A stretch of 33,684 bases of DNA from a virus. Location of the stretch: the IMG/VR virus record IMGVR_UViG_3300010373_000033, positions 1 to 33,684 of that record; one strand, given 5' to 3'. Position numbers and translations under genes: made by a program. A model generated the notes under the pieces. That model ran no database searches, was not told where the DNA came from, and saw only the letters and a list, made by a program, of their open reading frames with translations. Of this stretch, positions 1 through 33,684 are shown piece by piece (within the stretch, counting starts at the first letter, position 1; every line of letters starts with the position of its first letter).

Positions 1-123
1 CAGATCAATGATTCCTACAAGACTCTGACAAACAATGCACGAGCAGCAGGTAGGGAATGGATTAACAATAATTTTAGTTTATATGAATTAGGTAGAACTA
101 TGCACTCGGTTCATACCATAACC
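1..123. repeat. Terminal direct repeat (circular overlap)
   Basis: The first 123 bases are identical to the last 123 bases of the window. The tape-measure reading frame is continuous across the joint. This shows a circular or circularly permuted genome of about 33,561 bp, or an assembly overlap of such a genome. Confidence 0.97.
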
Positions 124-5172: not shown

Positions 5173-5186
5173 TTCTTTATTTTTTA
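5173..5186 (+). terminator. Oligo-T terminator candidate for the late unit
   Basis: A T-rich tract begins immediately after the stop of the gene ending at 5172 and runs into the convergent gene's stop codon. Archaeal transcription commonly ends at such tracts. No hairpin is seen. Confidence 0.4.
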
Positions 5187-6332
5187 TACAAAATTTGCAT
5201 GTTTGGGGCGTTCTATTCCCTGCTTCATAGCCTTGTTTCTATCCCTCATCCAGCATGGCGGACAAGTCTTGACGTCTAACTGCGTCATTTTGGAATGAGA
5301 TTTTTGGATTAATTCCTTCAAGGTATTTTCCCTGATATCACCAAGTTCAAAGCCTGGAATGTATTTTTGAATACAGCAAGGATAGATCTTACAGTCTGCA
5401 CCCAAAGCCCAGACGAATCTTTGCATGTAACAGGTATCAAAGTCATCATTTCCATGCGTATAGGATTCTAGTTTGTATAATGCCGGTGTGACTACATAAT
5501 CAGATCGTGAGTGACATTTGACTGCAATATTAAGCATGTCTTGGGCGTGTTTGAGATGCTCTGGTTCTATCTGCCCTATTCCTGTTCCCTCGATATACAT
5601 GAATGAAAACCTGATGTAGTCCACGCCAACCTCTGAAAATAATCTACTCGTATCCAAAATATCATCAAAATTCTGGTCGGTAATCACAAAATTTACACCT
5701 ATTGTAAGTCCCTCATCTTTTGGATTCGGTATCCGTTCGTATAATTTTCTTTTCTCTACAAGTTTCTTGATTGCTTCCAACCTTCTCTCAAAATCAAGGT
5801 TTCCAGTCCTGTGGATCTTTTTATGCGTTTCAGGATTGGAACTATCAATCGATATTCTAACCCACCTGAAATGTCTAGCCATTGTTTCAATTCTTTTTTC
5901 TGTCATCGTACTGCCGTTTGTAATCAAGCCAATTTCCAAGCCATATTTGACACAATTATCGACCATCTCATCATAGGCAGACCATAAAGTGGACTCACCC
6001 CCCCCAGTGAAAGTTATTGAAGGGATACCAGCTTCATAAAACTGCCTTGGTAATTCCTTGGCAAACTCTACGGGAAGGCTTGTGTTTTTTGATGGCTTAC
6101 CTATTGGCTTGAACTCGTCAATCATTGGCAACTTTTTCGGGTTAAGCAAAGGCAACATGTTCTTTGCGTTATGCGATTCTTCTGCACGGTAAGAACAAAA
6201 ACTGCAATTATCATTACAATAAAGTTCAAGATCTACCTGAATGTTAGTCGGTGCAATCGGTTTCCCTTCCTGTAAAAGTTTCAGCCTGTCAAGGTGATAA
6301 TTTGCCTTTGATAACGAGAATGGTGCTTCCAC
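5184..6332 (-). CDS. Radical SAM enzyme with SPASM-like C-terminus
   Basis: This 382-residue protein starts at GTG, whose G is the last base of the upstream TAG. It carries the radical SAM cluster motif CxxxCxxC at C39, C43 and C46, a SAM-binding FTGGGES motif near residue 110, and LITNGS and RISID strand motifs of the TIM barrel. Residues about 300-370 hold more cysteines (DTC, ADC, PCC, CPPC), as in SPASM/Twitch domains that bind extra Fe-S clusters. Such enzymes usually modify peptides or small molecules. The substrate is unknown and no obvious precursor peptide is adjacent. It ends a leftward unit with an adenine methyltransferase and a ParB-like gene. Confidence 0.88.
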   Translation of the reverse strand: MEAPFSLSKANYHLDRLKLLQEGKPIAPTNIQVDLELYCNDNCSFCSYRAEESHNAKNMLPLLNPKKLPMIDEFKPIGKPSKNTSLPVEFAKELPRQFYEAGIPSITFTGGGESTLWSAYDEMVDNCVKYGLEIGLITNGSTMTEKRIETMARHFRWVRISIDSSNPETHKKIHRTGNLDFERRLEAIKKLVEKRKLYERIPNPKDEGLTIGVNFVITDQNFDDILDTSRLFSEVGVDYIRFSFMYIEGTGIGQIEPEHLKHAQDMLNIAVKCHSRSDYVVTPALYKLESYTHGNDDFDTCYMQRFVWALGADCKIYPCCIQKYIPGFELGDIRENTLKELIQKSHSKMTQLDVKTCPPCWMRDRNKAMKQGIERPKHANFV

Positions 6333-6574
6333 TAACCTAGTAAATCGCTTGCCTTTTTAAATATTGGTGGGTGTTTCTCGTTTTTTCGTACACTGATATC
6401 GTAATGTTTCTGGCAGAGGTTTCGTTTTTCTATCCCGATTGATACCGTAATCACTGAACGTTCAGGGCATTTTGATATCGAGCATTTCTTGGAACGATCC
6501 TGACTAGATATCTTTGCTTTCTTGACTGTTTGCCTTTTCTTTCCGTATGCAGATAACGGGATTATGAAACTCAT
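6332..6574 (-). CDS. Small basic zinc-binding protein
   Basis: An 80-residue protein whose ATG at 6574 overlaps the methyltransferase stop (ATGA) and whose TAG shares a base with the GTG of the radical SAM gene. It is Lys/Arg-rich and has C-x4-C and CxxxH (CQKH) elements that could hold one zinc. Tight coupling on both sides suggests it is made with its neighbours. It could be a DNA-binding accessory or partner of either enzyme; not recognised. Confidence 0.6.
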   Translation of the reverse strand: MSFIIPLSAYGKKRQTVKKAKISSQDRSKKCSISKCPERSVITVSIGIEKRNLCQKHYDISVRKNEKHPPIFKKASDLLG

Positions 6575-7029
6575 TTCTTTCGGTAGATAATCCAGACGGA
6601 AGGATACGGTGCTGGATACTTGGTTGGTTTTCCTCTCTCATCATTGAACTTGATTCGACCTTTTATGAAATGAACCTCGGCTTTATTCTCTACGTAATCA
6701 TGCCACCATTTGGTATCCGTCTTGGAATAGGTCAAGATCAATGCGTTTACGTTGTGTTTTAGATGCTGTTCATAGGCGTATCTCATAAAGACTCCGACTT
6801 GAGAATATGGCGGGTTCATGTAGAAATCCATATCCCACTCTTGCTTTAACGTATCAATCTCTTTGGTGAAATAGCATACAAATTTTGCATTGGGACCGTT
6901 TGAACAGACATCCAATATGGGGAAAATCCGATAATCAATACATGCCTTGTCTAACTTGTCTTGTGGCGTTCCGTATTCGTCTTGTACTGTGATTCCTTTC
7001 AAGTGTTGGACTGCTTTTGATTTACTCAT
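6571..7029 (-). CDS. Phage-type DNA N6-adenine methyltransferase
   Basis: A 152-residue protein of the phage Dam-like family (DNA N-6-adenine-methyltransferase). The catalytic motif is NPPYSQ in its middle, followed by a GRIKF stretch and a C-terminal YPSVWIIY strand, all typical of this small family. The true start is probably the ATG at 7029, whose ATGA overlaps the stop of the ParB-like gene; an upstream in-frame ATG at 7056 lies inside that gene. No partner endonuclease is seen, so it may protect viral DNA or regulate expression. Confidence 0.82.
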   Translation of the reverse strand: MSKSKAVQHLKGITVQDEYGTPQDKLDKACIDYRIFPILDVCSNGPNAKFVCYFTKEIDTLKQEWDMDFYMNPPYSQVGVFMRYAYEQHLKHNVNALILTYSKTDTKWWHDYVENKAEVHFIKGRIKFNDERGKPTKYPAPYPSVWIIYRKK

Positions 7030-7979
7030 TCTCCCCACTCGCATTGCGTACAGCATATCCTCTTATGAACGTGGCATAGTTTCCGCTTTCTGCAGACATT
7101 TCCGCATTTCTGGCATAGTTCTTTTGATACGTGCGGGTTGCTATGCGTGTTGAATTCCTTGTTTTTGTAGCGTCTTTTTATTATTTCATAGAAAAGTTTG
7201 TTTACATTTGTCTTTCCAAGTCTTAGATCTTCATTTTCCTTTTCAGTCCCATGCTTGCGGATATAGTTTATCCTTGATACAGTCCCAGCACCGACTCCGA
7301 TTATCTTTCCAACCTTGTAATCTGCCGAGTTCTCTATCTGTTCCTGTCTTGTCAAAGGTTTCCGTATCCCTAATCTTATCTCGGATAGAAACTTTTTCCT
7401 ATTCTCGTTATTTTCATTATGCAAGATATTTTTATAATCATCCATGAGGACGACCATTTCATAATTTGATAACTGCCTTCTTTTCAGGTTGGCAGTTATG
7501 ACGTACATTTTCTCTGCAATCTTGTCGTCAAAGTCCTTTACTACATATCTTACAGTTTTGTCTAACAACGTACAAATCTCATATCTTGTGTGTCCGTCTA
7601 GGATTTTGCCATCCTTTGCAAGTACAATCGGCTCATGCAAGCCCTCTTTTTCGATTGATTCCTTGAGGAAGGCATGCTGATTTTTGCCTAACCTTGGAAC
7701 TGCATGAAGATAGGCAATGTCGATATATGGCACAAGTTTCGGATCTTCCCCATTTCCCGCATACTCTACATTTGGAACCTTGATGTCATTTCGTAGTTTG
7801 GATTTATAGTTTGAATTTCTAGGCTTTTGGCGTAATCTGTATCCACAACATGGACAGTACAAGCCATCATATTGGATGAATATCTCACATACTTGGCAAC
7901 GCTTCTGTCCAATACCATATCTTGATTCACCTGTAATTTTAAATGCCTGAATATTCTTACAGGTACCCTTGCATGCCAT
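7026..7979 (-). CDS. ParB/Srx-like protein with N- and C-terminal zinc modules
   Basis: A 317-residue protein. Residues 1-63 are a Cys-rich module (C-x3-C, KRCQVC, CPCCG, KPRN) that also occurs as a stand-alone gene at 17981. Residues about 85-180 match the ParB N-terminal (sulfiredoxin-like) fold, with IVLAKDGKILDGHTRYE as the phosphate-binding motif. A helical region with an HTH-like segment (about 215-250) follows, then a second Cys cluster (CQKC, C, CHVH, CTQC) at the end. ParB-like viral proteins can partition DNA, act as nucleases or regulate. Probably DNA-binding. Confidence 0.8.
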   Translation of the reverse strand: MACKGTCKNIQAFKITGESRYGIGQKRCQVCEIFIQYDGLYCPCCGYRLRQKPRNSNYKSKLRNDIKVPNVEYAGNGEDPKLVPYIDIAYLHAVPRLGKNQHAFLKESIEKEGLHEPIVLAKDGKILDGHTRYEICTLLDKTVRYVVKDFDDKIAEKMYVITANLKRRQLSNYEMVVLMDDYKNILHNENNENRKKFLSEIRLGIRKPLTRQEQIENSADYKVGKIIGVGAGTVSRINYIRKHGTEKENEDLRLGKTNVNKLFYEIIKRRYKNKEFNTHSNPHVSKELCQKCGNVCRKRKLCHVHKRICCTQCEWGE

Positions 7980-11007: not shown

Positions 11008-11097
11008 ATGTCTGAAAATTACTCGGATGACAACTGTATTTGTAGGGCAGAAATTATCAATCCTGACTGTCCTAGACATGGAAAGATCCTAAGCTAA
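11008..11097 (+). CDS. 29-residue zinc-knuckle-like microprotein
   Basis: ATG one base after the previous stop and ending in a 4-base overlap with the convergent gene's stop. It has the pattern C-x-C-x8-C-x2-H, enough for one zinc. Very short, so moderate confidence. Confidence 0.5.
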   Translation: MSENYSDDNCICRAEIINPDCPRHGKILS

Positions 11098-11393
11098 CTT
11101 TTATTTCCTTTTGTAATCAAGAGTTTCAAATTAGGAATGAAATATCTTATGTAACTAATCAAGTCATATTCTTCACATCCACAATTAAACGAATAATCAT
11201 TATCTGGATACCATGATATGCAGACTCCTTTAGGATCTGATAGATGATCATAACTCACATGATCATAGAGTCTATGTTCACAGTTGTAGCAGGGAAGCCA
11301 ACCATAGACATACTTCTTTGATTTCTCTAGTACATGGTTAACATCTAAACAGAATCTAGCAAACTTGCTATAAGGTAACTGGAATTGATACAT
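11094..11393 (-). CDS. Cys-rich 99-residue protein, last gene of the leftward zinc cluster
   Basis: It contains CYNC near residue 35 and CGC near 71, with several His between, so probably one zinc site. It is rich in Tyr and Asp. The end meets the convergent rightward unit in a 4-base overlap. Function unknown. Confidence 0.6.
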   Translation of the reverse strand: MYQFQLPYSKFARFCLDVNHVLEKSKKYVYGWLPCYNCEHRLYDHVSYDHLSDPKGVCISWYPDNDYSFNCGCEEYDLISYIRYFIPNLKLLITKGNKS

Positions 11394-11416
11394 CTAGTAA
11401 CACTCCGATTCTTTTG

Positions 11417-11533
11417 TCATTTAGGTACTCCGAATAATGTGATAGACATGGTTATCTTACATCTATTACAAAAGTAATCATCTTTTCCTTTGAAGAATGG
11501 AGTTAACTCTTTTCTACAAAGAGGGCAAAACAT
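11417..11533 (-). CDS. 38-residue zinc-ribbon microprotein
   Basis: ATG at 11533, or TTG at 11539 overlapping the previous TGA as TTGA and adding two residues. Two CxxC pairs (CPLC and CNRC, about 16 apart) form a full minimal zinc ribbon. Unknown role. Confidence 0.6.
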   Translation of the reverse strand: MFCPLCRKELTPFFKGKDDYFCNRCKITMSITLFGVPK

Positions 11534-11535
11534 AC

Positions 11536-11760
11536 TCAAGACGACTTCACCGCAATATCATCAGACTTTTTCATTCCTTGTCCACGAGCATATTTGATTC
11601 CACAATTAATGTAGTTGTGTTCATGAACTTGATCTGCTGGACACGAATTTACCGAACGATAATATCTATCATGTTTGGAATTATGAAGAAAAATGAATCT
11701 GAATGAACCTACATCATAGAATCGATTACAAGTCTTACAAAAATAATATCCATCACTCAT
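11536..11760 (-). CDS. Small Cys/His-rich protein
   Basis: 74 residues; ATG overlaps the Dam stop (ATGA). CKTC at residues 8-11, later single Cys residues and several His make a likely zinc site. The C-terminus is basic. Unknown. Confidence 0.6.
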   Translation of the reverse strand: MSDGYYFCKTCNRFYDVGSFRFIFLHNSKHDRYYRSVNSCPADQVHEHNYINCGIKYARGQGMKKSDDIAVKSS

Positions 11761-12602
11761 GTCTCTAAACCTTCCTTTTGAAATGTAATCGGGAAAGCCT
11801 CTAAAGGATTTTGCTTGATGACAATATCTGGACTTAGAATCAATATTTCTGAGGACTTCTTAGAATCATTACTAATTCCATACTTCCAAGTTAAATTCAT
11901 GATTCTAAATTGGCCATATCTTTCTCTAATGACCTCTGTATCATTGTATGATAAAATCCATCTCTCACGATTCTTGAGTAATTCATAGAGCATATTATGT
12001 TCAAACTCTTCCTTACTTCTCTTTGAATAGGCATAGAGTCTATCATGTTTAACATAAGGTGGATCTAGATATAGAAAGTCCTCCGAGTGTTTTGGTATTG
12101 AGGCTTTGAAATCTGAATAACCAATATGAAACCCACTTACCTTGAAGTTTCTAACTCTATCAATAATGGCCTTATTGAATCTCTGATAGATGTCTGTGTA
12201 TAATCCACCATTAACAGTAGAACCACCAAATGTAGTTCGATTTAAAATAAAAAACATAACTGCACGCATAATAGAGTCTTGTTCAATGAAGATCTTTTTA
12301 CTCCAAGTACGTAAAACATTCTTATCAATATTGAAGTGTTCTTGAATCTTGTCTGCTAATTGCTCTGGATTGTTTACTAGGTGATTCCAGAAATCTACTA
12401 AAGGTTCAAAGTTGTCATAACCATAAACTCTAATTCCTTTGGTTGCACATGATAACTCGAAAGAACCACCGCCTATGAATGGTGAACATATTGTCTTTAG
12501 ATTCTCAGGTAAGTATTGAGTTAATGATTTAATTGCTCTTGTCTTACCCCCTGCATATCTTAAGGGCGATATGGCATGTTGACATTGGTTATCTTTTGTC
12601 AA
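11757..12602 (-). CDS. dam: D12-class DNA adenine methyltransferase (Dam)
   Basis: A 281-residue protein of the D12 class N6-adenine family. It shows the N-terminal PLRYAGGK motif (about 13-20), the SAM-binding FIGGGSFE motif (about 42-49), a helical target-recognition region, and the catalytic DPPY (about 178-181). Start TTG at 12602 overlaps the upstream TGA (TTGA). It is the only large enzyme in the zinc-microprotein cluster and has no adjacent restriction enzyme. It likely modifies GATC-like sites to evade host nucleases or switch transcription; the site is not determinable here. Confidence 0.9.
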   Translation of the reverse strand: MTKDNQCQHAISPLRYAGGKTRAIKSLTQYLPENLKTICSPFIGGGSFELSCATKGIRVYGYDNFEPLVDFWNHLVNNPEQLADKIQEHFNIDKNVLRTWSKKIFIEQDSIMRAVMFFILNRTTFGGSTVNGGLYTDIYQRFNKAIIDRVRNFKVSGFHIGYSDFKASIPKHSEDFLYLDPPYVKHDRLYAYSKRSKEEFEHNMLYELLKNRERWILSYNDTEVIRERYGQFRIMNLTWKYGISNDSKKSSEILILSPDIVIKQNPLEAFPITFQKEGLET

Positions 12603-12697
12603 TCTAATTCATCCTCATATTCTTTACATAATTGATAATCCACATGAAAATAAATCGCTTCTTTAACATGACATTCATCACAAATCCCTTGATTCAT
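12599..12697 (-). CDS. 32-residue zinc microprotein
   Basis: ATG at 12697 overlaps the upstream stop (ATGA), and the stop overlaps the Dam start (TTGA). CDEC near the N-terminus, a following His and a third Cys at residue 24 fit one zinc. Perfect coupling on both sides supports translation. Confidence 0.55.
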   Translation of the reverse strand: MNQGICDECHVKEAIYFHVDYQLCKEYEDELD

Positions 12698-12891
12698 AGT
12701 ATATGCACCATTGGTTCATCAAAACTATACTTACTTGGTAACTTCAAAAGACATTCAGGGCATCTTAACCAATTATACATCCAATTTACAATAACACAAA
12801 GTACGATTTTCTTATGAAGTGGACAATAAGAATAAGTGTTTGTTGTTTTCCATCCCCTACGTGTAAGTGGACAATTTGTTGTTCCTGTCAA
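12694..12891 (-). CDS. 65-residue zinc protein
   Basis: The preferred start is TTG at 12891, which forms TTGA with the upstream stop; a longer in-frame start at TTG 12906 overlaps more. The N-terminus (MTGTTNCPLTRRG) resembles the one at 13818. A CPLH and a CPEC form a zinc site around a hydrophobic middle. Unknown. Confidence 0.6.
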   Translation of the reverse strand: MTGTTNCPLTRRGWKTTNTYSYCPLHKKIVLCVIVNWMYNWLRCPECLLKLPSKYSFDEPMVHIL

Positions 12892-13085
12892 GATGAATCT
12901 CTCCAAAGAATTTCATTAGTAACAACCTCATTTACAATTTCTAATCCACATTCTGAACAAGTAATTTTTCTAGTTCTAAAAAACATGTAAATTGGATAGA
13001 ATCGCTGTTTTTGGCAACTATTACAAAAAACTCTAAAATATGCTACGGCTGTCTTTCTTTCTAGACGGTCTGACGGAACTGTCAT
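12888..13085 (-). CDS. 65-residue zinc-ribbon protein
   Basis: ATG at 13085 overlaps the upstream stop (ATGA), with GGAG upstream. CNSC and CSEC, about 19 residues apart, are a zinc ribbon, flanked by basic residues and aromatic strands. Probably nucleic-acid-binding. Confidence 0.65.
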   Translation of the reverse strand: MTVPSDRLERKTAVAYFRVFCNSCQKQRFYPIYMFFRTRKITCSECGLEIVNEVVTNEILWRDSS

Positions 13086-13249
13086 TTGGATAGTTTCTCC
13101 TTACGTCTTTTAGCCCACATTTCTTCATGAGTTAACCTACCTCGTTTTATTCTTCCCTTAGTCTGATAGTATTTGTTCTGTCTTTCTCTTTGTTTTTTGC
13201 AAGGTAAACAATCACATTTGTAAACTCCACGTTTCTTAAATTCTGCCAT
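13082..13249 (-). CDS. Basic 55-residue Cys-rich protein
   Basis: ATG at 13249 overlaps the upstream TAA (TAATG), and the stop overlaps the next ATG. It has a CDCLPC cluster and is strongly Lys/Arg-rich thereafter (many RQ, KR pairs). Likely binds nucleic acid. Confidence 0.6.
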   Translation of the reverse strand: MAEFKKRGVYKCDCLPCKKQRERQNKYYQTKGRIKRGRLTHEEMWAKRRKEKLSK

Positions 13250-13419
13250 TACGGTTTCTCCATAATGTCATTTGCCTTAACTCTGGACTCACAATCGCAT
13301 TGAATCATCTTCTTAACATGATAGCCACCTTTAGAACATTCATCATCATAATCTATTGAAATACTCATCCAATCACAATCAAGTAAGATACCACAATTAA
13401 AACAAACTAGATGTCTCAT
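13249..13419 (-). CDS. 56-residue zinc protein (start revised)
   Basis: A longer frame is open to 13467. The ATG at 13419 overlaps the stop of the upstream 30-codon gene as ATGA, so it is the better start. CFNC and CDC motifs lie 40 residues apart with further Cys. Unknown. Confidence 0.6.
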   Translation of the reverse strand: MRHLVCFNCGILLDCDWMSISIDYDDECSKGGYHVKKMIQCDCESRVKANDIMEKP

Positions 13420-13508
13420 TCTAAAAGATTCTCCTCTTCCATTAATTCGATGGTGCACATTACACATCGATAACCTTCTCTACAGTCGCATGAATTATTT
13501 ATAGTCAT
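13416..13508 (-). CDS. 30-residue Cys-rich microprotein
   Basis: ATG at 13508 and stop at 13416 both sit in ATGA overlaps with neighbours. CDC followed by a CVMC makes four Cys within 12 residues. It overlaps an alternative longer start of the next gene, which is rejected in its favour. Confidence 0.5.
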   Translation of the reverse strand: MTINNSCDCREGYRCVMCTIELMEEENLLE

Positions 13509-13609
13509 TTCATTTGCCACTCCTCAATAAGTTTCTTAAGTATTGGGCATTGTGTGTCATGATACCCATTTGCTATTTTACAGTCTTTACATTTGTTATC
13601 TACTGTCAA
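13505..13609 (-). CDS. 34-residue zinc microprotein
   Basis: TTG at 13609 forms TTGA with the upstream stop, and the end overlaps the next ATG (ATGA). CKDC, a His and one more Cys give a one-zinc pattern. GAGGGG lies upstream as a possible ribosome-binding site. Confidence 0.55.
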   Translation of the reverse strand: MTVDNKCKDCKIANGYHDTQCPILKKLIEEWQMK

Positions 13610-13818
13610 CAGATTAACCCCTCATGATTAAGTTGTTTGACTGATTGAATTGAGTGATCTAAAAGTATTTTCATAGACGGTAATCGTTTAGATAGTTTTT
13701 CAGCGTCTAGTAAATGATTCATGGCTTGTTGAATTTCAATTAAAAATCTATGATATTCATCAAGTGGATGAGGTGGGTTTATTCCCTTGCATATTGGACA
13801 CTTTGTTGTAGATGTCAA
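13606..13818 (-). CDS. 70-residue protein with N-terminal zinc motif and helix
   Basis: TTG at 13818 forms TTGA with the upstream stop. N-terminal CPIC (residues 7-10) is followed by a long amphipathic helix (about 22-62). The end has one Cys. Helical part suggests dimerisation. Unknown. Confidence 0.6.
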   Translation of the reverse strand: MTSTTKCPICKGINPPHPLDEYHRFLIEIQQAMNHLLDAEKLSKRLPSMKILLDHSIQSVKQLNHEGLIC

Positions 13819-13964
13819 TCTAATTTCTCCATTAATTCAGGATTTTTGGCATAAAGTTCATCTGCAATCTCATTCATTTCTTCTTCTGAACATTCCATAG
13901 TATACCACCAAGTACCTACACTTCTACCTGTTTTCCTGAACCTATCTTGGTCTAAATCAAACAT
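13815..13964 (-). CDS. Acidic 49-residue microprotein
   Basis: ATG at 13964 lies inside the end of the upstream gene (8-base overlap), and the stop forms the TTGA start of the next. The C-terminal half is Glu-rich and helical, with one Cys. Unknown. Confidence 0.55.
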   Translation of the reverse strand: MFDLDQDRFRKTGRSVGTWWYTMECSEEEMNEIADELYAKNPELMEKLD

Positions 13965-14187
13965 CTTTACTTGTACCTCGAAACGTTTGGAAGCAATCTG
14001 CGATATGGTGTACTGCTTGTGTTCTAGACATCATAGTAAAACAAAATATCTTACATATTGGACAATGGTCATACTTGTTTGGTATTTCCCAGACCCCTGC
14101 ACACTTTTCACATATCTCTACGTTTGGATACTGTAATTTTAGTTTAGCAATAAGTTTCTGTTTACTTTCTAACTTCTTTGTTGACAT
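13957..14187 (-). CDS. 76-residue zinc-ribbon protein (start revised)
   Basis: A longer frame runs to 14289 but would overlap the upstream gene by about 100 bases; the ATG at 14187, one base past that gene's stop, is better. It has CEKC, then CPIC about 17 residues later, a zinc ribbon, preceded by a basic helix. A VHH motif and another Cys follow. Confidence 0.6.
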   Translation of the reverse strand: MSTKKLESKQKLIAKLKLQYPNVEICEKCAGVWEIPNKYDHCPICKIFCFTMMSRTQAVHHIADCFQTFRGTSKDV

Positions 14188-14188
14188 G

Positions 14189-14371
14189 TTAGAAATTCTC
14201 CAAGTAGTCTGAAAGATTGTTTTCATTACAGTGAATAACGCAATCACGTTTAACATTGTAAATTGTAATTGTCTTAAGTTCTGTACCAAAATCGTCTATG
14301 TTCTCTTTACCTTTTGCAAGGGCTAACATTCGCTTGCCTCTGTAAGATAGACCATTAGTTGATTGTGTCAT
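14189..14371 (-). CDS. 60-residue protein with C-terminal Cys/His
   Basis: ATG at 14371 overlaps the upstream TAA (TAATG); an in-frame extension to 14383 is less likely. It has a basic N-terminal half (RGKRM) and a CVIHC cluster. Unknown; possibly DNA-binding. Confidence 0.55.
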   Translation of the reverse strand: MTQSTNGLSYRGKRMLALAKGKENIDDFGTELKTITIYNVKRDCVIHCNENNLSDYLENF

Positions 14372-14493
14372 TAAGCAGTACACCTATCATCTAACATATT
14401 ACAATTTGAGTGCCAATACCTTCCATCTCCATCAGTCCAGATATTTTTGTCTTTTATTACTCTCTTACAGTAATAACATTTCTTATGTCTCAT
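14371..14493 (-). CDS. 40-residue zinc-finger microprotein
   Basis: ATG at 14493 overlaps the upstream gene by 11 bases and ends at a TAATG junction. CYYC and, 18 residues later, HSNC form a CxxC ... HxxxC finger resembling half a LIM domain. Further Cys near the end. Confidence 0.6.
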   Translation of the reverse strand: MRHKKCYYCKRVIKDKNIWTDGDGRYWHSNCNMLDDRCTA

Positions 14494-14620
14494 GTAATTT
14501 CTCCAAATCTGAATAAGTCCATGCTTCTAAATTATGAGTATTACATCTAACATAATTTGCTCTGATTACATCATCTCTTTCTTTTGTGATAAAACATTTA
14601 CCTTTAGATGGAAGTGTCAT
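14483..14620 (-). CDS. 45-residue microprotein with two Cys
   Basis: ATG at 14620 overlaps the upstream stop (ATGA), preceded by AGGTGA. Mixed charge, with Cys at 9 and 26 and a His nearby. Unknown. Confidence 0.55.
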   Translation of the reverse strand: MTLPSKGKCFITKERDDVIRANYVRCNTHNLEAWTYSDLEKLHET

Positions 14621-15021
14621 TTGGTGTATTCACCTACAATGGTCATACTATCCAAATCAAAATCAAATGGCTTATCGTTTGGTCGTGACTTTGTTAATTC
14701 TTCATGCCATTTCTTCAATCCATGTTTAGCGATATACATTAGATGATTTACTGTACCATGATATTGAGCACCACTACAACCTTCGTTAACCTTTAGCATT
14801 AGTTCTTTACATTCCTTGAATGATTCAGGTGTATCAATCAATCCAAAGACATTCTCAAAACTTGCAGTACCTTTTAGCAAGTCAGAAGGTTGGTCATACT
14901 TTGCAAGATATTTTATTCCAGTCCATAGCATCTTTTGGCATCCTTCTTCATAACCTCTTGGAAAGCCTGAAATTTCCCAAGTCTTGACAATGTTCTGATT
15001 ACATAATTCCTCTACTGTCAT
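14617..15021 (-). CDS. Unknown 134-residue protein
   Basis: ATG overlaps the upstream stop (ATGA). Mostly helical, with several Cys not in CxxC pairs. Aromatic-rich (FPRGYEEGCQKMLWTGIKY). The largest unknown of this cluster; no motif recognised. Confidence 0.6.
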   Translation of the reverse strand: MTVEELCNQNIVKTWEISGFPRGYEEGCQKMLWTGIKYLAKYDQPSDLLKGTASFENVFGLIDTPESFKECKELMLKVNEGCSGAQYHGTVNHLMYIAKHGLKKWHEELTKSRPNDKPFDFDLDSMTIVGEYTK

Positions 15022-15272
15022 GCTTGTGGCACTCCTAGTTTTACCTTCTTCTTATTAATTAACATTAAAACATATTTGAATAAATCCTCTGGATCTTCGT
15101 TCTGATACTCGCCTGTTAAGATTACAGATTTGTTGTCTGTTTTTCCTTGGTCAGTCCATAGTAGAATATCATAGTAGAATACACCCTTTTCTTTTCTTAG
15201 TTTGCATACCATGCTAGAACCGTAATAGACTTGTCTTATTTTCAGTTCCTTGATTCTGTCTTGTGAATTCAT
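15018..15272 (-). CDS. First gene of the leftward zinc cluster, unknown
   Basis: 84 residues, basic and beta-rich at the N-terminal half (KIRQVYYGSSMVCKL), with a helical end. It is behind a TATA-like box 26 nt upstream, so likely leaderless. No family recognised. Confidence 0.6.
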   Translation of the reverse strand: MNSQDRIKELKIRQVYYGSSMVCKLRKEKGVFYYDILLWTDQGKTDNKSVILTGEYQNEDPEDLFKYVLMLINKKKVKLGVPQA

Positions 15273-18889: not shown

Positions 18890-18967
18890 ATGAGTGAAAT
18901 ACACAAGAAAAGAAAATCACCCGTTATCGAAGAAAGAAAACTAATCCAAACGGACTTGTTGCAATAA
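18890..18967 (+). CDS. 25-residue basic peptide
   Basis: ATG 18890 to TAA 18967, overlapping the next ATG (TAATG). Lys/Arg-rich, no Cys. Supported only by the junction and by the following chain of small genes; weak. Confidence 0.35.
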   Translation: MSEIHKKRKSPVIEERKLIQTDLLQ

Positions 18968-19053
18968 TGCTCGAATGTCTTATCTGTCACAAACTGGAAC
19001 AGTTACCCGAAGATATGCAAGATCATTTGTTGATTCACGAGGATAGTTCCTGA
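18967..19053 (+). CDS. 28-residue single C2H2 zinc finger
   Basis: Starts on the previous stop and ends on the next ATG (TGATG). CLIC, then 12 residues, then HLLIH is the spacing of a classical C2H2 finger; there is almost nothing else in the protein. Confidence 0.6.
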   Translation: MLECLICHKLEQLPEDMQDHLLIHEDSS

Positions 19054-19280
19054 TGCCGCCTTCGATCAATTCTGCCAAATGTGACAAATGTGAAAGGTCA
19101 TTTCATCCTGACGATATTGAGAATCACAAGGCATTACACGAAAAGGAAGGCGACATTTGTATCGTCTGCGGTCTTGGTATGATGATTACTTCCGAAGATG
19201 AAATCCATATCACCTGTGACTATTGCAGTACAACGTGGACGAAGCAGGGTCATGAAAAGCCATTGAGTGAGAGAATATGA
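19053..19280 (+). CDS. 75-residue C2H2 finger plus zinc ribbon
   Basis: CDKC ... HKALH (about residues 10-29) is a C2H2 finger, followed by CIVC and CDYC as a zinc ribbon. The stop overlaps the next ATG. Two-zinc protein, probably nucleic-acid-binding. Confidence 0.65.
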   Translation: MPPSINSAKCDKCERSFHPDDIENHKALHEKEGDICIVCGLGMMITSEDEIHITCDYCSTTWTKQGHEKPLSERI

Positions 19281-19480
19281 AAAGTCTCGGTAAATTATGT
19301 CTTGTAAAATACAAGTTAAAATGTTATGATTGTGATATCATCTATGTTACACCAGAGAGAAAGGAATTACAATATGAAAAAGGTCTAACAGTAACAGCCA
19401 AGTGTCAAGAGTGCGGAAAGAAGATTTTTAGTAAACGAATAGTTGGTCCAATTATTGACCTAGGATTAATTTCTATATGA
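19277..19480 (+). CDS. 67-residue zinc-ribbon protein
   Basis: CYDC and CQEC, about 27 apart, within a basic beta-rich chain. ATG and stop both sit in 4-base overlaps with neighbours. Confidence 0.65.
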   Translation: MKSLGKLCLVKYKLKCYDCDIIYVTPERKELQYEKGLTVTAKCQECGKKIFSKRIVGPIIDLGLISI

Positions 19481-19569
19481 AAGCCTTGGACTTTATCAAA
19501 TTACATTTTGACGTAGACGAAGCAGATGCCGAGTTTGATAAGGCATTGATGGAGTTTTTGACACCTTGA
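19477..19569 (+). CDS. 30-residue acidic microprotein
   Basis: ATG overlaps the upstream stop (ATGA), and the end forms the TTGA start of the next. Short amphipathic acidic helix. Unknown. Confidence 0.5.
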   Translation: MKALDFIKLHFDVDEADAEFDKALMEFLTP

Positions 19570-19697
19570 ACTGCCAATGCTCAGACGAACCATTGTTTTG
19601 TAGGCTATGTCATTACGGTGATATCCATATTTCCTTCACAACAGAATCAGATATAGTAAAGCATTTCAAGGATATCCACGGAGTATTGAGATCATGA
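19566..19697 (+). CDS. 43-residue zinc finger
   Basis: TTG at 19566 in a TTGA overlap; stop overlaps the next ATG. CQC, then CRLC and HFKDIH give a C2H2-like finger with an extra Cys pair. Confidence 0.6.
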   Translation: MNCQCSDEPLFCRLCHYGDIHISFTTESDIVKHFKDIHGVLRS

Positions 19698-19891
19698 GTT
19701 TATCCAAACAGCATAAAATCAAACGAAAACTGGTATTGCTTCATATAGAAGATGGAACAATGGTCGAGTGTCAGAATCTTGCAGCACACCTAAAAACTCT
19801 ATACCCAAGTACCATATTCATGATTACCCACAAGAAGATGGATTCAATTTCAAGAGCTGAACTAAAACAGATGGTGAAGATGTTAGAATGA
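19694..19891 (+). CDS. 65-residue basic unknown
   Basis: Basic N-terminus (KQHKIKRKL), then alpha/beta. One Cys. Both ends in 4-base overlaps. Unknown. Confidence 0.55.
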   Translation: MSLSKQHKIKRKLVLLHIEDGTMVECQNLAAHLKTLYPSTIFMITHKKMDSISRAELKQMVKMLE

Positions 19892-33478: not shown

Positions 33479-33684
33479 GTGCAGGAACAACAGAAGCAGA
33501 TGTAAAGATCATCCTATCCGCAGATGATCAAGCTAGCGGACCGATTGATTCGGCAACAAACCAGATCAATGATTCCTACAAGACTCTGACAAACAATGCA
33601 CGAGCAGCAGGTAGGGAATGGATTAACAATAATTTTAGTTTATATGAATTAGGTAGAACTATGCACTCGGTTCATACCATAACC
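33475..33684 (+). CDS. Tail tape measure-like protein, N-terminal part
   Basis: ATG at 33475 overlaps the frameshift-form stop (ATGA). The frame continues through the end of the window into base 1 by the 123-base overlap (phase checked: 29 codons precede the repeat). See the C-terminal part at 1-786. Confidence 0.8.
   Translation, partial: MSAGTTEADVKIILSADDQASGPIDSATNQINDSYKTLTNNARAAGREWINNNFSLYELGRTMHSVHTIT
33562..33684. repeat. Terminal direct repeat (copy of 1-123)
   Basis: Identical to bases 1-123; marks the circular joint. Confidence 0.97.

Follow-up and report, generated by a model that had tools for sequence, protein, structure and literature searches.

The locus described here is a chain of small overlapping genes in an archaeal virus (IMG/VR record IMGVR_UViG_3300010373_000033, positions 1-33,684; this whole stretch of 33,684 nucleotides (nt) is called the window), and several described systems come close to it. 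Of 14 overlapping gene pairs tested in Haloferax and E. coli, 13 were strictly coupled in translation, with a varying contribution of the Shine-Dalgarno (SD) motif (Huber et al. 2019, PMC6728339). These termination-reinitiation pairs resemble our locus in their ATGA-type overlaps and in an SD motif within the 3' end of the upstream gene; they are gene pairs, whereas the window holds a run of about 19 viral genes, mostly for microproteins, in which coupling is predicted from sequence. The Start-Associated Sequences (SAS) of Cluster K mycobacteriophages (PMC3203893) are likewise short sequences at the starts of non-structural genes, often of different families, and are possible recombination targets. 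They follow one 13-bp consensus, located 3-7 bp upstream of starts and predominantly at large intergenic gaps, whereas the window has several different joints that reach into the coding start, and most of its junctions overlap and differ from one another.

Conserved boundary sequences as sites of module exchange are an old bacteriophage model (PMC3233612), which shares with our locus the pairing of conserved gene-boundary sequence with exchanged modules; it differs in that the window comes from an archaeal virus, its microprotein genes overlap and a translation signal lies inside the joint. The zinc-finger u-proteins of Haloferax (PMC11241148) are archaeal, of similar size and carry cysteine pairs, but they are cellular and are defined by two C(P)XCG motifs. 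No open reading frame (ORF) of the chain, numbered below g01 to g19 from its first gene, has two such motifs; g11 and g13 have one each and the other 17 have none. The host-takeover module of phage SPO1 is reportedly a cluster of mostly small early genes acting on the host; it belongs to a bacterial phage, and the likeness, junctions aside, lies in the small early host-acting genes. No such chain was described among the titles and abstract openings listed in the literature searched, which covered journals outside subscription, or in the passages found by a word search of PMC6563490, PMC8651126 and PMC11849493. We rate each element as having precedents and the novelty as residing in the combination.

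The comparisons below document, at the level of sequence, the chain itself, SD motifs at its starts, an enrichment in cysteine, stop/start joints kept between one pair of genomes and varied coding cargo behind one helicase gene. We consider it probable that the chain is an operon read by termination-reinitiation, in which the joints are kept while the microprotein cargo is swapped.

Architecture of the chain

The initial annotation had reported about seventeen coupled genes at this place. The chain is confirmed, with a count of 19 consecutive ORFs between 15272 and 11094 of the minus strand. Sixteen of them have the 30-85 residues that had been given for nearly every gene, the exceptions being g02 (134), g16 (281) and g19 (99). 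Fourteen of the 18 junctions are of the ATGA, TTGA or TAATG types attributed to the chain, 12 as 4-nt stop/start overlaps and 2 as 1-nt overlaps (TAATG); the other four are an 11-nt overlap, an 8-nt overlap, a 1-nt gap and a 23-nt gap. The (A/T)TGAC sequence and resulting Met-Thr N-termini, also remarked on there, occur at 9 of the 18 internal starts. This pattern is partly mechanical, because a 4-nt overlap forces A as the first base of the second codon; the shared leader codons exceed what ATGA overlaps alone give.

When only ORFs of 25-150 residues joined by 4- or 1-nt overlaps were allowed, the longest strict chain comprised 9 ORFs, g07 among them entered at an internal start. Dinucleotide shuffles gave at most 4 (400 shuffles of the region) or 5 (60 shuffles of the window), and chance ORFs as an explanation of the whole chain were rejected on this length. 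The Nitrososphaera provirus Pro-Nvie1 has no comparable chain in its annotation and a strict chain of at most 4. An SD match of at least 4 nt, 7-12 nt upstream, was present at 18 of 18 internal starts, compared with 76 of 261 other same-strand start codons in the region; the internal starts were picked by overlap, and the bases upstream had already been viewed. The motif lies within the last part of the preceding gene, or for g19 inside the 23-nt gap. The first gene, g01, has no SD motif and is preceded by an AT-rich stretch containing TTTAAA; it is probably the promoter-proximal gene, with this stretch as a candidate promoter.

Cysteine pairs had been ascribed to nearly every gene. A CxxC motif is found in 13 of the 19 ORFs (16 occurrences; mean 3.5 and maximum 9 in 2000 shuffles) and is absent from the other six. 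Cysteine accounts for 60 of 890 residues in the chain minus g01, g02 and g16, compared with 25 of the 3926 residues of ten long genes. The window is not alone in having coupled, SD-led ORFs of 25-100 residues that carry CxxC: they number 15 of 28 there, 9 of 26 in the related contig IMGVR_UViG_3300010371_000080 (called G002) and 1-11 in each of nine other genomes. The genes of the chain are as follows, where L067 is the chain locus of G002; all lie on the minus strand.

15018..15272, minus: g01, 84 residues, opens the chain; 57% identity over 77 residues to its G002 homologue
14617..15021, minus: g02, 134 residues, without family; leader MTVEE shared with G002 ORF L067:10326, body not
14483..14620, minus: g03, 45 residues; leader MTLPS shared with L067:10472
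14371..14493, minus: g04, 40 residues, CxxC; LIM-like Pfam match of 19.4 bits, under the cut-off of 22.9
14189..14371, minus: g05, 60 residues, TAATG joint
13957..14187, minus: g06, 76 residues, two CxxC
13815..13964, minus: g07, 49 residues, no CxxC
13606..13818, minus: g08, 70 residues, TTG start, CxxC, leader MTSTT
13505..13609, minus: g09, 34 residues, TTG start, CxxC, leader MTVDN
13416..13508, minus: g10, 30 residues, CxxC
13249..13419, minus: g11, 56 residues, CxxC
13082..13249, minus: g12, 55 residues, basic, CxxC, TAATG joint
12888..13085, minus: g13, 65 residues, CxxC-x18-CxxC; leader like L067:11417, body like L067:12034
12694..12891, minus: g14, 65 residues, TTG start, CxxC, leader MTGTT
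12599..12697, minus: g15, 32 residues, CxxC
11757..12602, minus: g16, 281 residues, D12-class N6-adenine DNA methyltransferase; leader MTKDN shared with a 63-residue G002 ORF
11536..11760, minus: g17, 74 residues, CxxC
11417..11539, minus: g18, 40 residues, CxxC-x15-CxxC, zinc-ribbon-like
11094..11393, minus: g19, 99 residues, CxxC; separated from g18 by the 23-nt gap

Joints and cargo in related viruses

Only g01 and g16 have clear full-length homologues among the loci compared; of the chain, tblastn gave a clear match for just these two, g16 to a host genome (L036, 23% identity) and g01 to G002, the only relative found that shares g01. There the g01 homologue opens a first chain of about 14 short ORFs, mostly joined by 4-nt overlaps and with one 83-nt gap, which is followed by a XerC-like gene (E 5.5e-4, under the cut-off). 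A second, strict chain of 10 ORFs comes after a recombinase-like gene. Across both chains, CxxC is present in 16 of 24 ORFs, the annotated frame is the best by a codon-position model in 14 of 24, and SD motifs precede 18 of 22 internal starts compared with 91 of 345 background starts. Relatives with disrupted short frames between intact flanking genes, which the initial annotation had named as speaking against it, were not seen in this comparison, which held no close relative; the G002 stretch again consists mostly of overlapping open frames, with other contents.

Starts of the two genomes were compared in register (396 pairs), with 3450 comparisons inside gene bodies as the null. Six junction pairs scored 13-22.5, compared with a null maximum of 10.

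13243..13272, minus: g11/g12 junction, 27 of 30 nt identical to L067:11211, covering the end of the upstream gene, SD, stop and start; flanking proteins unrelated
14604..14621, minus: g02/g03 junction and leader, 18 of 18 nt, L067:10472
13804..13823, minus: g07/g08 junction and leader, 19 of 20 nt, L067:11713
14999..15020, minus: g02 leader, 19 of 22 nt, L067:10326
12589..12602, minus: g16 leader, 14 of 14 nt, L067:11850
13071..13088, minus: g12/g13 junction and leader, 16 of 18 nt, L067:11417

Five of these six pairs are collinear in both genomes. Exact matches of at least 14 nt between the window and G002 number 36, of which four fall at chain starts, each of them in register. Four pairs agree fully over residues 2-5, where 20,000 column shuffles never gave more than 2 such pairs and 16 later offsets gave none, and 15 of the 16 codons in those leaders are kept where about 6.6 would be expected (sum of probabilities). 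The g01 homologues, by contrast, keep the codon at 18 of 42 conserved residues. Leaders also recur within the window, where g08 and g14, and g09 and g16, are alike at 20 of their first 24 nt.

The bodies behind these leaders differ. Past residue 7 the partners of g02, g03, g08, g12 and g13 look unrelated, as 176, 33, 309, 371 and 227 of 400 shuffles, respectively, reached the observed score. The partners are also unequal in length, 134 and 49 residues for g02 and 281 and 63 for g16. The leader and the body of g13 seem to have different partners in G002; its body scored 49 against L067:12034 where the maximum of 400 shuffles was 48, a pair taken from an all-against-all list (E 0.006).

A control set was assembled from 518 SD-led overlapping junctions in virus and provirus loci. 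Of the pairs scoring at least 13 (368 in all), 276 had both flanks related, 54 only the upstream flank, 8 only the downstream flank and 30 neither. A slightly stricter cut left 29 pairs with neither flank related, and four of these were between the window and G002, including the two highest. The g08 pair (17.5) falls outside this control, its G002 partner having no SD match, as does the g02 pair, which follows the related g01. The strongest junction pairs are those of g12 and g03; the g16 (14) and g13 (13) pairs are weak one by one, because the other 25 unrelated-flank pairs score 13-17.

A joint with varied cargo was also found behind a helicase gene. In seven contigs, an MCM-type helicase gene ends in the ATGA at which a short ORF starts; the copy tested, from G008, matched Pfam MCM at E 4.2e-42, and the other six are 55-95% identical to it. 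Six different cargos of 28-59 residues occupy this slot, five of them with CxxC. One cargo is common to G008 and L009 only, and all other pairs are within the shuffle range. The slot is a case of cargo replacement at a stop/start joint, though the joint may persist merely as the end of a conserved gene. The MCM-slot cargos, together with the kept joints and differing cargo in G002, bear out the description of a modular, overlapping, cysteine-rich gene set in a thaumarchaeal virus.

All of this might be expected of an ordinary compact early operon, in which the packing is common, the leaders are good start sequences found again by selection and the bodies are fast-diverged orthologues. We regard this as rather unlikely. 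In its favor, overlapping pairs with an internal SD motif are general in archaea and bacteria (PMC6728339), 25 of the 29 unrelated-flank pairs in the control are not between the window and G002, and leader pattern WTGACACTTCCATCTAA, which occurs in 8 stretches of the viral contigs of which one is G002, is thus found exactly in seven other contigs. In two of these, L111 and L114, it stands at the starts of small SD-led ORFs that have no long coupled frame upstream; in the other five, frames are open 24-403 codons upstream, and L110 and L113 have the same sequence at the motif. What it explains less well is that several distinct leader words match in register across one and the same pair of genomes and keep 15 of 16 codons, that six pairs exceed the null maximum, that partners are unequal in length and different in content (the g16 methyltransferase and a 63-residue ORF), and that the MCM slot has varied cargo behind the same gene. 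Leader pattern WTGACATCTACAACANNNTGT gave one match in 300 genomes, a 22-residue frame without SD. These two leaders, the only ones searched, led to no further chain and do not appear widespread in the data searched.

Two observations concern G002 itself. At the first genes of its two chains (L067 10072 and 14625), ATGGCAAGA is immediately preceded by the same stretch, GTTCACGCA, which may be a shared element near the promoter. An ORF at L067 16642-17265 contains a long run of NQVRNQV-type repeat units.

Weighing kept joints against changed cargo

In the account that we favor, the chain would be one transcription unit, started ahead of g01 from a single promoter, and most genes after g01 would be translated by termination-reinitiation. 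The coupling signal would consist of an SD motif within the end of the upstream gene together with the ATGA, TTGA or TAATG overlap. The joints would be the lasting elements, and the coding cargo between them would be exchanged among viruses, presumably by recombination at the joints. Most cargo would be cysteine-pair proteins of 30-99 residues, probably metal-binding, that may serve as accessory factors acting early on the host. One slot would now hold an adenine methyltransferase, probably guarding viral DNA from host restriction.

A bolder form of this account, which we think unlikely, has the joints act both as a translation relay and as exchange homology for metal-binding microprotein cassettes, in an array without a dedicated integrase. 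Cargo entering between two joints would then be expressed at once, in line with its neighbors.

Several points weigh against our account of kept joints and swapped cargo. The comparison of joints is of one genome pair, G002 being the sole relative that shares g01, and the null inside gene bodies does not have the SD and start grammar of real junctions. Three extra cross pairs (g05/10472, g09/11850 and g09/10326) score 11.5-12.5 outside a one-to-one scheme, and the 25 control pairs from elsewhere, with neither flank related, reach 13-17. The body of g16 is closer to borderline against its G002 partner, its score being reached by 18 of 400 shuffles, and for g03 only the 33 shuffles given above did so. 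Selection alone, with fast divergence of the bodies, could keep the joints; this is disfavored because the lengths differ (134 compared with 49 and 281 compared with 63 residues). As to metal binding, 5 of 14 purified Haloferax cysteine-pair proteins were zinc-free (PMC11241148). Finally, the annotated frame was the best by the codon-position model in only 11 of the 19 ORFs and went unsupported in g04, g09, g12, g13, g14, g17, g18 and g19, the shortfall being largest in g12, g14 and g19.

This last result raises the possibility that some of the short frames arose by chance in an AT-rich accessory region that is partly non-coding. A codon-usage gene caller recovered 12 of the 19 stop codons, missed 7 and called one 25-residue ORF on the opposite strand within the region, and g16 alone of the 19 ORFs passed a curated Pfam cut-off. 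Single ORFs are less certain than the chain as a whole, because the frame model supports 11 of 19 and the caller recovers 12 of 19. Summed over the chain, however, the codon-position score is positive and above both other frames. The 18 of 18 SD motifs, the chain length, a CxxC spacing beyond that of the shuffles and the recurrence of this architecture in a second genome make spurious frames a very unlikely explanation.

Methyltransferases, the virus and significance

The g16 product passes the curated cut-off for PF02086 (D12; 87.9 bits, cut-off 22) and fails that of the Dam family TIGR00571 (88.2 bits, cut-off 114.85). The initial annotation, partly supported overall, had placed one Dam methyltransferase at the center of the set, and on this point it was not supported. 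No g16 match was found in G002 at E<=1e-3, and g16 as the organizing center was rejected on this absence from an otherwise analogous chain; g16 itself looks like another cargo gene with a shared leader in front. It is also not the only such enzyme, as a second adenine methyltransferase is encoded at 6571-7056 on the minus strand (PF05869, 78.8 bits, cut-off 28.1). This second gene overlaps one that has four CxxC and a weak likeness to ParB, the two spanning 6571-7979 (minus).

At E<=1e-12, relatives of METHYLTRANSFERASE (g16) were found in 34 of the 400 genomes of the Nitrososphaeria class, with at most 47% identity over nearly the full length. Eight of these loci were read. The neighbors tested in three of them (L090, L093 and L096) were all HaeIII-type endonucleases, and L089 has a similar-looking neighbor, judged by appearance alone; none was seen in L091, L094, L095 or L100. 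The three tested loci are instances, in Nitrososphaeria-class genomes, of a D12 adenine methyltransferase paired with a HaeIII-type endonuclease. The partner of HaeIII itself is a cytosine methyltransferase.

Several sites are depleted in the window: GCGC (0, compared with 30 expected), GGCC (15 and 51) and AGCT (36 and 89), as if restriction were being avoided. TTAA is also low (126 and 243). GATC occurs 111 times where 142 would be expected, which says little on the target site of g16. We infer that g16 probably protects viral DNA against host restriction.

It may be that the whole chain is an anti-restriction or anti-defense island, made up mainly of counter-defense factors with the methyltransferase as the recognizable one. 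We hold this tentatively, as somewhat unlikely. Consistent with it are the host relatives beside HaeIII-type endonucleases (three tested), the depletion of GCGC and GGCC, and the small size and fast turnover of the genes, a turnover equally expected for any host-interaction factors. A PADLOC scan of ten window proteins bears on both sides. Both methyltransferases matched, g16 to Type II and orphan methyltransferase models, whereas among the eight other chain members included g13 alone matched up to E 0.01, as a weak Cas12f (E 0.0083); the scan covered nine of the 19 chain members, g16 included.

Two further chain products were modeled. The g18 model (pLDDT 76.5) resembles zinc ribbons: zinc-ribbon subunits of RNA polymerases I, II and III make up most of its top ten Foldseek matches (E 0.14-0.44, probability scores 0.87-0.96), and archaeal TFS4 ranks tenth. 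At the sequence level, g18 matched Pfam zinc ribbons below threshold and had a match in PHROG at E 6.6e-5. The g01 model (pLDDT 68) has four strands and one helix. Foldseek returned 4bg7 weakly (E 0.08, probability score 0.66), and VIA-align placed PC4 chains at Z 3.9-4.0, with a different chain in the top row at Z 5.8; a PC4-like single-stranded-DNA-binding fold is thus a lead and not a result. A sequence search for a structure homologue of g01 gave none that was convincing (best E 0.68). A g01 alignment found G002 as the sole relative in the viral contigs and in 33 records, and four marginal matches spanning 27-32 positions in the 400 class genomes; L085, one of these four, has no chain among its ORFs.

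The first and last 123 bases of the window (1-123 and 33562-33684) are identical direct repeats, so the record is probably a complete genome, circular or terminally redundant. Among 50,697 phage records, the sole match of both TerL (42.5%) and portal (47.2%) was Pro-Nvie1 (FR725450), and a portal alignment search found one Nitrososphaera metagenome-assembled genome. On this kinship we therefore assign the window to a thaumarchaeal tailed virus (Caudoviricetes), a virus of ammonia-oxidizing archaea. In IMG/VR, a search with a two-row TerL alignment yielded 32 loci, the closest at 45-46%; a second TerL alignment led to the same 32 contigs. As single queries, the window methyltransferase, TerL, portal and g02 found no relative in the viral contigs, nor did TerL in the genome contigs. 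Elsewhere in the window, a radical SAM protein (5184-6332, minus) is 49% identical to one in G002, its top NCBIfam match being viperin-like and under the cut-off (77 and 180 bits). A second coupled run of small ORFs, several of them cysteine-rich, lies at 18890-19891 (plus), with a strict chain of 7; its coordinates enclose a 30-residue ORF (19477-19569) with 50% identity over 30 residues to L003:5510-5599 in G002.

To our knowledge, the early genes of viruses of ammonia-oxidizing archaea are little explored. Microproteins are easily overlooked in annotation, as the seven of 19 missed here by the codon-usage caller illustrate. Should the joints outlast their cargo, they would locate such genes in other viruses without protein homology. 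They would then also offer a testable case for an old question, whether conserved boundary sequences or selection alone set module borders at gene borders.

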